A stretch of 64,000 bases of DNA from Sphingomicrobium flavum (GTDB lineage: Bacteria > Pseudomonadota > Alphaproteobacteria > Sphingomonadales > Sphingomonadaceae): contig NZ_CP102630.1 of assembly GCF_024721605.1 (NCBI RefSeq), forward strand, positions 1,674,001-1,738,000, read 5' to 3'. This document shows positions 13,840 through 17,223 of this stretch, piece by piece. Positions within the stretch are counted from its first letter, which is position 1. Each line of letters begins with the position of its first letter. The notes beneath the pieces are model-generated. The model was given only the letters and a program-made list of their open reading frames with translations, was not told the DNA's origin and searched no databases. A program made the translations under genes and the position numbers.

Positions 13840-13976
13840 AATGATGAGTCTCCCTGTCTGGCCGCGCAGGCTACTCGCCTCTCCCGCTTTGGCAAGCCGC
13901 ACTTCGACCAATGAATTTTCGCGCTATGTCGGGTCGCGGTCTTTCTTTCGTGGCGCGAAGAACGTAAAGTGAACAG

Positions 13977-15239
13977 ATGGCCCGCCTCGATACCCAGCAA
14001 AAGCTCGAAATTCTCGCCGATGCGGCGAAATATGACGCGTCCTGCGCCAGCAGCGGGTCGTCCAAGCGCGACAGCCGATCAGGCAAGGGCATGGGCTCGA
14101 CCGAAGGCATGGGCATCTGCCACGCTTATGCGCCCGACGGCCGCTGCATCAGCCTGCTCAAGATCCTGCTGACCAACAGCTGCATTTTCGATTGCCATTA
14201 TTGCATCAACCGCAAGAGCAGCAATGTCCGCCGCGCCCGCTTCACCGTCGATGAAGTGGTCCAGCTCACGCTCAATTTCTACAAGCGCAACTATATCGAG
14301 GGGCTGTTCCTCTCTTCGGGCATCATCCATTCGTCCAACTATACGATGGAGCAATTGGTCGAGGTCGCGCGCCAGCTGCGCGAGGTGCATGACTTTCGCG
14401 GCTATATCCATCTCAAGACCATCCCCGATGCCGATCCCGAGCTGGTGCGCCAGGCCGGTCTCCACGCCGATCGCGTGTCGATCAATGTCGAACTGCCCAC
14501 CCGTGAGGGGCTGACCCGGCTGGCGCCCGAAAAGGACGAAGCGCGCATCGAGGGCGCGATGAAGGCGACCAAGATCGACATTCTCGACGCCAAGGATGCA
14601 CGCAAGAAATATCGATCCGCCCCACGTTTTGCGCCCGGCGGCCAATCGACCCAGATGATCGTGGGCGCCGACGATGCCAATGACGGTGCGATCGTCACCC
14701 GCGCGCGCAGCCTTTACGACCGCTTCGGGCTGAGGCGCGTCTATTACAGCGCCTTTTCCCCCATTCCCGAGCCGAGCGCGGTGTTGCCCCTGAAACGCCC
14801 GCCGCTGATGCGCGAGCATCGCCTCTACCAATCCGACTGGCTGATGCGCTTTTACGGTTTTACCCCGCAAGAAGTGGTGGCGACCACCGACACTGCCGGC
14901 ATGCTGCCCCTCGACATCGACCCCAAGCTCGCCTTCGCGCTGAAATTCCGCGAACAATTCCCCGTCGACATCAACCGGGCCAGCCGCGAACAATTGTTGC
15001 GCGTGCCGGGGCTCGGCACCAAGGCGGTAGGGCGCATCCTGTCGGTCCGGCGCCACCGCTCGCTGCGGCTCGAGGATGTTGCTCGGTTGACGGTCTCGGT
15101 GAAGAAGATTCGTCCTTTCATCATCACGATCGACTGGCGTCCGACGCTCCTGACTGACCGCGCCGACCTCAAAAGCCTGGTCATGCCGCCGCCCGCACAG
15201 CTTGACCTGTTCACCGCTCCGATGGCCGCCGCCGCCTGA
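13977..15239 (+). CDS. Radical SAM protein of the UDG-linked putative DNA modification/repair family
   Basis: The 420-residue product has the radical-SAM iron-sulfur motif Cys69-x3-Cys73-x2-Cys76 (CIFDCHYC), preceded by GICHAYAPDGRCISLLK. A C-terminal helix-hairpin-helix, VDINRASREQLLRVPGLG (about residues 330-350), is a typical non-specific DNA-binding unit. This architecture matches the family known as putative DNA modification/repair radical SAM protein. It is nearly always found beside a protein joining a DUF4130-like domain to a uracil-DNA glycosylase, and that partner is at 15769-17223. Radical SAM enzymes make a 5'-deoxyadenosyl radical, so a radical-based change to a nucleobase is the obvious guess, but the reaction is unknown. 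The ATG at 13977 is the only good start. Confidence 0.9.
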   Translation: MARLDTQQKLEILADAAKYDASCASSGSSKRDSRSGKGMGSTEGMGICHAYAPDGRCISLLKILLTNSCIFDCHYCINRKSSNVRRARFTVDEVVQLTLNFYKRNYIEGLFLSSGIIHSSNYTMEQLVEVARQLREVHDFRGYIHLKTIPDADPELVRQAGLHADRVSINVELPTREGLTRLAPEKDEARIEGAMKATKIDILDAKDARKKYRSAPRFAPGGQSTQMIVGADDANDGAIVTRARSLYDRFGLRRVYYSAFSPIPEPSAVLPLKRPPLMREHRLYQSDWLMRFYGFTPQEVVATTDTAGMLPLDIDPKLAFALKFREQFPVDINRASREQLLRVPGLGTKAVGRILSVRRHRSLRLEDVARLTVSVKKIRPFIITIDWRPTLLTDRADLKSLVMPPPAQLDLFTAPMAAAA

Positions 15240-15285
15240 ACCAAGGGCTTTTCAGCGCGTTGTGTTGGGCAAAGGAGTATCGACT

Positions 15286-15765
15286 ATGACCGATCAGACG
15301 ATTTTCAAGCGCTTGAAGAAGGACCATGATGTCCACCGTGAATTGCTCGAAAATATCGAGCAGGCCAAGGGCGAACAGCGCGGCGCCCTGTTCAACAATT
15401 TCAGGATGGAAGTGACGGCGCACGCCGCGGCGGAAGAGGAAACGCTCTACGCCACCATGCTGCAAAAGCCCGACCTTCGCCATGACGGCCAGCATAGCGT
15501 CGCCGAGCATAAGGAGCTCGACGACCTGATGAGCGAGCTTGCAGAGATGGATCCTGCCAGCAGCGCCTGGAGCGAGAAGTTCAAGAAACTTCGTCACGAA
15601 TATGAGCATCATATCGACGAGGAAGAAGAAGAGATGTTCCCCGCCGCCGCCGAAGGGTTGAGCAAGGAAACCGAAGTCCAGCTCAAGAAGAAGTTCGAAG
15701 AGCGCAAGCCCGCGGAATATCAGCGCGCGCTCGAGGGCACCGATATGGATGACGATCGCGAATGA
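15286..15765 (+). CDS. Hemerythrin HHE-domain protein
   Basis: The 159-residue product is all-helical and carries the hemerythrin His/Glu ligand set: KKDHDVHREL, TAHAAAEEETLY, AEHKELDDLM and RHEYEHHIDEEEEEMFP. These bind a di-iron centre able to take up oxygen or reactive oxygen/nitrogen species. Start ATG 15286 has AAAGGAG eight bases upstream; the longer frame to 15202 runs into the preceding gene and was rejected. It sits between the radical-SAM gene and the UdgX fusion, with only three bases to the latter, so all three are probably co-transcribed. A stand-alone stress role is equally possible, but an iron/oxygen-sensing protein beside two Fe-S enzymes is suggestive. Confidence 0.9.
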   Translation: MTDQTIFKRLKKDHDVHRELLENIEQAKGEQRGALFNNFRMEVTAHAAAEEETLYATMLQKPDLRHDGQHSVAEHKELDDLMSELAEMDPASSAWSEKFKKLRHEYEHHIDEEEEEMFPAAAEGLSKETEVQLKKKFEERKPAEYQRALEGTDMDDDRE

Positions 15766-15768
15766 TAT

Positions 15769-17223
15769 ATGACAGGTGCGCCGGTGAGCGCTGAATATCG
15801 CATCACCCTAAGCGCACCTGACGATGTGACAGGATGGCGGGATGCCGCACGGTCTTTGCTGGCCGCGCGCGTCCCGCCTTCTTCCATTGTCTGGCAGGTC
15901 GAGGGCGAGGATGGCGACCTGTTTGGCGCCTCCGCGCTGCCCGCCAAAGGCAATGCCGATATCCGCGTCCCCAAGGCTTTCCTGCCGCTTGCCGCCACGG
16001 TCGTCTGCCACCGCGATCCCGAACGCTTCGCCTTGCTGTATGAGGCCCTTTGGCGGCTGCAGGATCAGCGCCAGATGCTGGAGGATCGAGCTGATCCGCT
16101 GGTCGCCCGTCTCTACGCCATGGAAAAGGAAGTGCGCCGCGATGCGCACAAGATGCACGCTTTCGTGCGTTTCCGCGAAGTGGAAGAGGCGGACGGCGCG
16201 GTGCGCATGGTCGCCTGGTTCGAGCCTGACAACCATATCGTGCGGCGCGAGGCGGGGTTCTTCATGCGCCGCTTCACCAATATGCGCTGGTCCATCCTGA
16301 CGCCCGACGTGTCGATCCACTGGGATGGCGAGACGCTGACCGAAGGGCCGGGTGCGACCCGCCGCGACGCCCCCGATGGCGATCCGGTCGAAGAGACGTG
16401 GAAGGCCTATTACAAGTCCATCTTCAACCCCGCGCGGGTGAAGGTGAAGGCGATGACCGCCGAAATGCCGCGCAAATATTGGAAAAACATGCCCGAAACC
16501 GCCGCCATCGGCGAATTGCTGGCCAGCGCCCAAGCGCGCGAGTCGGCGATGATCGAGCGCAGCGCCGCCATTCCCGCTTCAGCGACTGCGCCTGCGCCTC
16601 TATCTTCCCGCCCCACCAATGTGGAAGCGGCGTGGGAAGCCTTGCGCGCTGAGGCCATGCAATGCACCCGCTGCGACCTCCACTGCCATGCCACCCAGAC
16701 CGTCTTTGGCGAGGGACCGCTATCGCCGCGCCTCTTCATCGTCGGTGAGCAGCCGGGCGACCAGGAGGATCTGGCTGGCCGTCCTTTCGTCGGCCCCGCC
16801 GGCCAGCTTCTGGACGAGGCCATGGCCCAAGCCGGCATTGATCGCGCCGCATGCTACGTCACCAATGCGGTCAAGCATTTCAAATTTGTCCAGCGCGGCA
16901 AGCGCCGGATCCATGACAAGCCCAATGTGGGGGAGATCAAGGCCTGCAATTGGTGGCTGGACCGCGAGCGCGAGTTGATCCGCCCGCCCCTCACCCTTGC
17001 GCTGGGCGCCAGCGCGGCGCGGGCGCTGACGGGCAAGGCGGTGACGATTTCCAGGGTGCGCGGCACCGCGCTGACGCTACCCGATGGCGGCGAATGCTGG
17101 GTAACGGTGCATCCAAGCTATCTGCTCCGCCTGCCTGACGAGGAAGCGGCACGCCGCGAGCGGGCACTGTTCGTTGAGGATCTGCGCCGCGCCGGGGCAC
17201 GCGCCGCCGCGCTTGCCGCCTAG
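15769..17223 (+). CDS. DUF4130-like domain fused to UdgX-type uracil-DNA glycosylase
   Basis: This 484-residue fusion has two parts. Residues 1 to about 270 form the domain found next to the UDG-linked radical SAM protein (DUF4130/SAM_7-link). Residues about 285-480 form a family-4-like uracil-DNA glycosylase. In that half, motif A is GEQPGDQED (326-334) and motif B is HPSYLLR (448-454). Between them is the loop KRRIH (378-382), which is diagnostic of UdgX. In characterised UdgX the histidine of that loop attacks the sugar after uracil removal and leaves the enzyme covalently bound to DNA; the equivalent here is His382. Cys299, Cys302 and Cys393 are probable Fe-S ligands. It is the last gene of the radical-SAM/hemerythrin cluster. 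Confidence 0.9.
   Translation: MTGAPVSAEYRITLSAPDDVTGWRDAARSLLAARVPPSSIVWQVEGEDGDLFGASALPAKGNADIRVPKAFLPLAATVVCHRDPERFALLYEALWRLQDQRQMLEDRADPLVARLYAMEKEVRRDAHKMHAFVRFREVEEADGAVRMVAWFEPDNHIVRREAGFFMRRFTNMRWSILTPDVSIHWDGETLTEGPGATRRDAPDGDPVEETWKAYYKSIFNPARVKVKAMTAEMPRKYWKNMPETAAIGELLASAQARESAMIERSAAIPASATAPAPLSSRPTNVEAAWEALRAEAMQCTRCDLHCHATQTVFGEGPLSPRLFIVGEQPGDQEDLAGRPFVGPAGQLLDEAMAQAGIDRAACYVTNAVKHFKFVQRGKRRIHDKPNVGEIKACNWWLDRERELIRPPLTLALGASAARALTGKAVTISRVRGTALTLPDGGECWVTVHPSYLLRLPDEEAARRERALFVEDLRRAGARAAALAA

Follow-up and report, generated by a model that had tools for sequence, protein, structure and literature searches.

Does a radical S-adenosylmethionine (SAM) enzyme encoded beside a hemerythrin and a predicted uracil-capturing protein act on damaged DNA, and does the hemerythrin take part in its reaction? 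This question is raised by a 64,000-nucleotide stretch of the Sphingomicrobium flavum genome (NZ_CP102630.1, positions 1,674,001 to 1,738,000, hereafter the window), a genome that consists of one contig of 2.34 Mb. Three genes of the window encode a radical SAM enzyme (rSAM), a hemerythrin and a fusion of the radical-SAM-linked domain DUF4130 to UdgX, a member of the uracil-DNA glycosylase (UDG) superfamily. The original prediction was a DNA repair or modification module with the hemerythrin as a working partner. Our analysis upheld the DNA repair part and carried it further, through a LexA box, a clamp-like motif, a UdgX signature and dnaE2 neighbours in relatives; a core partnership with the hemerythrin was not supported. 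Our preferred reading, to which we give roughly even odds (a probability of about 0.5), is a lesion-processing module that is induced by SOS, recruited by the clamp and allied to translesion synthesis, into which insertion of the hemerythrin would have brought a general-stress input. Three elements of this reading are supported by the sequence comparisons, namely control by DNA damage, a putatively DNA-binding radical SAM enzyme with a clamp-like motif, and an intact capture site.

The gene cluster and its SOS box

The co-orientation of the three genes and the short gaps between them (46 bp between rSAM and hemerythrin, 3 bp between hemerythrin and fusion) were confirmed by the open reading frame (ORF) coordinates, and the three gene families by profile matches (Table 1). 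In the NCBIfam search the rSAM scored 562.4 bits against TIGR03916 (cut-off 343.5) and the fusion 219 bits against TIGR03915 and 322 bits against TIGR03914 (UdgX); all three domains exceeded their curated cut-offs. Helix-hairpin-helix (HHH) models also matched the rSAM, with scores under their cut-offs, and the hemerythrin contains a single hemerythrin domain (PF01814, 59 bits). The rSAM and DUF4130-UdgX are an already known, uncharacterised pair: passages of PMC3765255 predict that DUF4130 is an enzyme related to mutagenesis and link it to UDGs and to radical SAM proteins of SplB-like type. TIGR03916 was also detected in Caulobacter crescentus, which served as a control genome. In the open-access literature searched, we found neither an assigned function for the rSAM/DUF4130/UdgX set nor a paper on UdgX together with radical SAM.

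Table 1. Positions of genes, motifs and control sites of the locus in the window
Feature	Position	Strand	Remarks
LexA (SOS) box GAAC-N7-GAAC, GAACGTAAAGTGAAC	13960-13974	+	reverse complement of alphaproteobacterial GTTC-N7-GTTC
Radical SAM enzyme (rSAM; TIGR03916, rSAM_link_UDG)	13977-15239	+	420 aa; ORF call and profile match
Extra cysteines C23, C48, C57	14043-14147	+	invariant; candidate auxiliary cluster ligands
CX3CX2C radical SAM motif (C69, C73, C76)	14181-14204	+	invariant, 81/81 alphaproteobacterial sequences; also in distant homologues
QLDLF, residues 408-412, beta-clamp-binding-like motif	15198-15212	+	C-terminal conservation
EcfG-like promoter TGAAC-N16-CGTT	15237-15261	+	one -35 mismatch; -35 overlaps rSAM stop TGA
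Hemerythrin (HHE) protein	15286-15765	+	159 aa from ATG; mechanical ORF begins earlier, at TTG
DUF4130-UdgX fusion	15769-17223	+	484 aa; DUF4130 residues ~16-244 (TIGR03915), UdgX ~247-474 (TIGR03914)
UdgX motif A GEQPG, residues 326-330	16744-16758	+	kept in 66/67 fusions >400 aa
UdgX R-loop KRRIH (covalent His), residues 378-382	16900-16914	+	K[RK][RK][IVLFM]H in 61/67 fusions >400 aa

The box GAACGTAAAGTGAAC ends 2 bp ahead of the rSAM ATG and is a perfect match to the alphaproteobacterial LexA motif, given as GTTC-N7-GTTC in passages of PMC8565304. A box in either orientation was present within 200 bp upstream of 85/87 rSAM genes, the window's included, in a set restricted to loci with enough upstream sequence, and of the rSAM in 77/80 named alphaproteobacterial loci; the 87- and 80-gene samples overlap and are made up of related organisms. 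Loci L062-L169 contain 99 matches to the motif in 795,507 bases, so a chance match within about 200 bp would be rare. The 30 matches in the window genome include sites just upstream of lexA (box at 967336-967350, gene at 967366-968019), before recA, next to a radical SAM gene of the PA0069 family, and in front of an imuA candidate, 2.3 kb ahead of dnaE2. This candidate had no family match and was taken as imuA because it is located just ahead of dnaE2. The gene cluster seems to be induced when DNA is damaged. SOS regulation of a UDG operon, COG1573-COG4277, is already in print, with Verrucomicrobia and Caulobacter reports cited there (passages of PMC8565304). No SOS box was found within 400 bp before hemerythrins remote from rSAM (0/20 loci), and the hemerythrin thus looks SOS-linked only within the operon.

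The PA0069-family gene begins beside a GAAC-N7-GAAC site at 856032-856046 of the window genome (L180). A second radical SAM enzyme, of a family that is presumably SplB-like, may therefore belong to the SOS regulon of this genome.

A clamp-like tail and extra cysteines in the radical SAM enzyme

Conservation at the C terminus of the rSAM is confined to a short island. Across 81 alphaproteobacterial sequences, the window's included, the five positions of this island are Q (100%), L (90%), any residue, L (99%) and F (90%); the flanking positions 405-407 and 413-420 are at most 53% conserved, and P404 is conserved at 91%. The loose form of the motif was present in 79/81 sequences and the strict form, QLxL[FL], in 69/81, and QLELF and QLDLF were the commonest versions in three overlapping sequence sets. 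The bacterial beta-clamp consensus is QL[SD]LF. Residues 408-420 have a pLDDT below 50 in the AlphaFold2 model of the protein, and by this consensus the rSAM carries a clamp-like motif within a flexible tail, as a beta-clamp client would. Neither QL[SD]LF nor QLSLP was found in the fusions (0/49) or the hemerythrins (0/20). ImuB has the clamp motif QLPLWG (passages of PMC10421592). The clamp-like motif of the rSAM was not met in the open-access literature searched, where no search was aimed at it.

Apart from the CX3CX2C motif, the only cysteines of the window rSAM are C23, C48 and C57. These three were kept in 81/81 alphaproteobacterial sequences and in five of six distant homologues (Parabacteroides, Acinetobacter, Acetoanaerobium, Cupriavidus and a gut phage contig); the Gemmatirosa homologue is without them. 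Three cysteines before the radical motif are reminiscent of LipA and MiaB, which both occur among the Foldseek matches described below. The AlphaFold2 model has a pLDDT of 81.5, and its residues 23-47 are poorly modelled, so a second Fe-S cluster is only a proposal. A Foldseek search with this model placed HydE, HydG, BioB, LIAS and MiaB among the best 50 of 75 matches (E<=0.001), a generic list with many kinds of radical SAM barrel. The invariant extra cysteines were not met in the open-access literature searched.

Matches to the rSAM also occurred in 10 phage records and 158/72,556 plasmid records, with identities of at most 77% among the matches listed. Phaeobacter was the commonest genus among rSAM-bearing plasmids (58 records).

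The predicted uracil-capture site of the fusion

The UdgX part of the fusion carries motif A, the R-loop and HPSYLLR, the first two of which are marks of covalent uracil-capturing UdgX according to passages of PMC10359453, where its physiological role is called largely unknown. The UdgX fold was matched in a Foldseek search with the fusion model (8iil, E 2.3e-21; 6ajo, E 3.0e-21). These active-site motifs are intact, and the fusion is a predicted uracil-DNA-capturing protein. UDG-superfamily proteins made up nearly all of the best 50 matches in the same search, which did not reveal the fold of DUF4130.

The pattern K[RK][RK]xH was missing in 6/67 fusions (L203, L206, L218, L230, L234 and L235); these may have lost covalent capture, or the sequences may be cut or out of frame. 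At L096 (G028) the frame of the DUF4130-UdgX fusion spans 373 aa and only the C-terminal UdgX part was matched, downstream, which suggests a frameshift or assembly error.

Loci shared with imuB-like and dnaE2 genes

The rSAM and the fusion lie between two genes of the mutagenic polymerase system in part of the loci: the one-strand order imuB-like, rSAM, DUF4130-UdgX, dnaE2 was found in 18/174 rSAM loci, which come from related, partly identical organisms. These 18 comprise eight named Erythrobacteraceae, three Novosphingobium, three unplaced Sphingomonadales and four genomes of the window's family. DnaE2 was identified by NF004225 (1385 bits), and the ImuB-like gene by the Y-family domains IMS and IMS_C together with DUF6504. 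The start codon of dnaE2 overlaps the stop codon of the fusion by one base at L206. Outside the 18, imuB-like and dnaE2 genes are divergent beside the rSAM at L260, and three further loci show just one of the two genes, two of them on short contigs. In the window genome dnaE2 is remote from the rSAM operon (160670-164044). The four-gene order was not met in the open-access literature searched, passages of PMC3765255 included.

Distribution and promoter of the hemerythrin

The window hemerythrin has the residues of its family. H14, H17, H46, E50, H70, H75, H109 and E113 are invariant in 20 homologues, and the HHE ligands H14, H46, E50, H75, H109 and E113, so assigned from the family, are present in 20/20. 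Its only solved relative at E<=0.01 is 6q09 (E 1.2e-9).

In a genus sample of 61 genomes, a close hemerythrin (E<1e-30) was present in 20, all 20 within the rSAM locus and on the same strand. These account for 20/49 rSAM loci; the other 29 are without a hemerythrin, as are all 12 genomes without rSAM (0/12), some of which are incomplete. At G015 the hemerythrin lies about 1.5 kb away, beyond an inserted gene, in the rSAM locus. The gap between hemerythrin and fusion is -1 to 25 nt in 20/20 genus loci; some gaps are larger in other genera, three with inserts of about 2.2 kb. An order sample of 296 genomes contained 115 close copies (E<1e-40). Of these, 30 lie within 6 kb of rSAM, all downstream of it on the same strand; 69 are not near a listed rSAM (44 on the same contig and 25 on other contigs, partly in draft genomes); and 16 are in genomes without rSAM among the matches listed. 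A class sample of 210 genomes had both genes in three at the thresholds used, two linked, from the window's family, and one unlinked. Among 80 named loci, tblastn detected a hemerythrin in 10 (five Sphingomonas, two Stakelama, one Sphingobium and two unplaced bins), and in none of the 30 from other families (L250-L279). The 70 tblastn-negative loci include L247 (Hephaestia), where a profile search found, on the opposite strand, an ORF with distant resemblance to a hemerythrin. The hemerythrin-bearing genera form one family in the taxonomy of the genome samples; NCBI places Sphingobium in its own family. The hemerythrin is thus an optional addition, confined to one family in these samples and often located elsewhere in relatives. 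In the 20 genus copies the association with the rSAM locus goes beyond chance; against the emphasis of the original prediction, other members have unrelated genes in the slot and in many relatives the hemerythrin is unlinked. Finding the hemerythrin at unrelated places in close relatives, together with an rSAM that binds neither DNA nor nucleotides, was to count against the original prediction, and the 69/115 copies not near a listed rSAM correspond to this in part.

The gap between rSAM and DUF4130 is an insertion-tolerant spot, with unrelated genes in hemerythrin-less members and in some hemerythrin-bearing loci. Inserts were seen in L064, L065, L073, L082, L083, L097, L106, L108, L111, L116, L125 and L128; named by eye, they are OmpW-like, glycosidase-like (on the other strand), aldo-keto reductase-like, and beta-helix plus cytochrome-like. 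The outer flanks (COQ7-like, TonB receptor and SMC, also named by eye) are shared by much of the genus, and these neighbours were set aside as functional partners and treated as background synteny. Because the slot accepts unrelated genes and the outer flanks are conserved, position alone proves little. The "linked" label needs 8 changes on the hemerythrin tree, and hemerythrin presence needs 11 on a quickly built rSAM tree with 86 rows, 4 of them forced by strong branches. These changes suggest that the hemerythrin probably arrived early and was then lost repeatedly.

Eighteen order-sample copies not near rSAM were examined, with 67 others left out. Two retain a tie to UdgX: in G116 the hemerythrin is followed by UdgX, DUF4130 is missing from the locus and no rSAM in the genome exceeds the cut-off, and G234, one of the 69, has the hemerythrin followed by DUF4130-UdgX, with rSAM on another contig.

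The EcfG-like promoter ahead of the window hemerythrin resembles the general-stress consensus of Sphingopyxis granuli, GGAAC-N16-CGTT, in which AAC is nearly invariant (passages of PMC7083833). Free hemerythrins had an exact GGAAC-N16-18-GTT upstream in 11/18 cases (0.07 in shuffles) and a version with at most one mismatch in 16/18 (1.55). A one-mismatch promoter was present in 37/39 linked hemerythrins (3.0 expected from shuffles). Within the genus the promoter was found in 19/20 hemerythrin-bearing loci (shuffle mean 1.4), or 17/20 (1.5) when the search window was set from the rSAM stop. Frequencies were 3/29 (2.0) in the same slot without a hemerythrin, 4/29 (1.9) upstream of the fusion in hemerythrin-less loci and 3/47 (3.75) upstream of rSAM. 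G116 and G234 carry GAAAC-type versions. NepR, a marker of the general stress response, is present in the window genome. Judged from the -10 element, a transcript from the window promoter would begin near 15268. With a gap of 3 bp, the fusion should be transcribed from the hemerythrin promoter too, and it looks as if the hemerythrin brings a second, general-stress switch into the operon.

A model for the module and the evidence that weighs against it

On our preferred reading, the operon would be induced on DNA damage through the LexA box and the rSAM, which has an HHH region, would be brought to stalled forks, where ImuB-DnaE2 also act, docking on the beta clamp through its C-terminal QLDLF. 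A radical reaction on DNA, as first proposed, is plausible. We infer the lesion, the chemistry and the parts played by DUF4130 and the hemerythrin as follows. With its 5'-deoxyadenosyl radical, and perhaps aided by a second Fe-S cluster held by C23/C48/C57, the rSAM might reverse base damage or trim it away in DNA that DUF4130 presents. UdgX could then excise uracil or a uracil-like product and stay covalently on the abasic site, which would be capped and shielded until bypass or recombination. The hemerythrin would be a one-family accessory, a general-stress gene inserted with an EcfG-type promoter, and under general stress it would be produced together with DUF4130-UdgX. Its di-iron site would most likely scavenge peroxide, NO or oxygen and so protect Fe-S clusters, remaining outside the chemistry; we propose this protection on the precedent of C. 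jejuni HerA/HerB (PMC4257069). A fuller version, in which the rSAM is a clamp-tethered accessory of ImuB-DnaE2 that edits lesions at the stalled fork and has a second Fe-S cluster on its three N-terminal cysteines, the fusion caps uracil or abasic sites, and the sphingomonad hemerythrin adds a general-stress response to a module that answered SOS only, is tentative and to be doubted more than believed.

Several observations weigh against this reading. The clamp motif is short and docking on the beta clamp putative; the loose pattern was composed after the sequences had been viewed, and among seven rows with distant homologues the strict form matched in two, the window's included. Over the whole window genome GAAC-N7-GAAC shows no enrichment (30 matches, with 47 for the backward control). 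For DUF4130, a profile search against solved structures gave none that was convincing (best E 0.89), and no reported activity for this rSAM or DUF4130 was found in the open-access literature searched. The general-stress promoter was exact in 0/39 linked hemerythrins; of the 37 one-mismatch versions, AAC is kept in 27 and broken in 10, and in about a dozen linked promoters the -35 element lies within coding sequence. The hemerythrin-bearing loci are related and not independent, 16/18 examined copies not near rSAM are not beside UdgX, and the persistence of the hemerythrin in G116 without an rSAM speaks against a role confined to protecting rSAM.

Alternative explanations

The strongest rival is that the hemerythrin merely hitch-hikes, as a general-stress gene in an insertion-tolerant slot, inherited with the locus and with no functional tie to it. 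We regard this as a serious possibility, short of an even chance. The unrelated genes in the slot, the likewise conserved COQ7-like, TonB receptor and SMC flanks, the 69/115 close copies away from a listed rSAM and the 11 changes on the quick rSAM tree all speak for it. It is opposed by the uniform placement of the linked copies (30/30 in the order sample on the same strand, downstream of rSAM), by linkage that survives among genus hemerythrins 39-74% identical to that of the window and in loci that showed none of those flanks, and by G116 and G234, which keep the hemerythrin with UdgX. The tight spacing to the fusion in 20/20 genus loci is a further point against it, with the larger gaps of some other genera noted above. 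The opposite view, in which supply or sensing of oxygen or iron by the hemerythrin is built into a radical reaction on DNA, is favoured by adjacency and co-orientation; nothing found indicates supply, and we consider it highly improbable. The gene is absent from 29/49 genus rSAM loci and 70/80 named loci (tblastn) and is preceded by its own general-stress-like promoter, and radical SAM chemistry is generally anaerobic. Given hemerythrin-less operons and unlinked copies, a core role in the reaction was rejected as the principal explanation.

Two further alternatives concern the chemistry. The rSAM could act by direct reversal, in the manner of spore photoproduct lyase (SplB), repairing a pyrimidine photoproduct and leaving uracil to UdgX, with no translesion partnership. 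SOS regulation is compatible with UV damage; against this unlikely option stand the three extra invariant cysteines, which SplB is not known to have, the imuB-dnaE2 placement, which it leaves unexplained, and the separate PA0069-family gene, presumably SplB-like, that adjoins its own box in the window genome. SplB was also absent from the best 50 of 75 Foldseek matches (E<=0.001), in a list that is generic, and no SplB family model was matched by the rSAM at E<=1e-3, where NCBIfam gave only TIGR03916 and Pfam gave generic radical SAM, Fer4_12 and HHH. DNA modification, with the rSAM and DUF4130 making a modified base that UdgX reads, is very unlikely, as a LexA box and a clamp-like motif suit repair better. 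The NCBIfam name, "putative DNA modification/repair radical SAM protein", allows for it, as does one Parabacteroides plasmid locus with queC and queF nearby, neighbours that occur in a single annotated record. That locus (L280) has the rSAM and a stand-alone TIGR03915 protein.

Relation to known systems

The window shares all three domains of the TIGR03916/TIGR03915/TIGR03914 set and differs by the added hemerythrin. We take COG4277 to be the TIGR03916 rSAM enzyme. On this assumption the COG1573-COG4277 SOS operon has the same UDG-family gene and partner under LexA regulation, in an account whose passages make no mention of DUF4130, a clamp motif or a hemerythrin (PMC8565304); the window locus differs from it by the inserted hemerythrin and the internal promoter. 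UdgX of Mycobacterium smegmatis (6ail, 6ajo) has KRRIH, GEQPG and HPSxLLR in common with the window UdgX and is 48-49% identical to it in Foldseek alignments, whereas the window UdgX is fused behind DUF4130, belongs to an operon that carries a LexA box and has a predicted activity. The ImuA-ImuB-DnaE2 mutasome has in common a LexA box, recruitment by a clamp motif (putative for the rSAM) and a shared locus in 18/174 cases; rSAM and UdgX are, in contrast, not polymerases, and dnaE2 of the window genome lies elsewhere. M. kansasii HLP (6q09) has the HHE fold with conserved ligands like the window hemerythrin, with weak similarity (E 1.2e-9). This protein and HerA/HerB reportedly have roles in catalase/NO or Fe-S protection. 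The C. jejuni HerA/HerB proteins are di-iron HHE proteins (PMC4257069), likened here to the window hemerythrin.

The clamp-like motif, the loci shared with dnaE2, and the SOS and general-stress-like promoters give this gene set specific experimental questions. If the preferred reading is true, it would place radical chemistry at the replication fork as part of lesion bypass.

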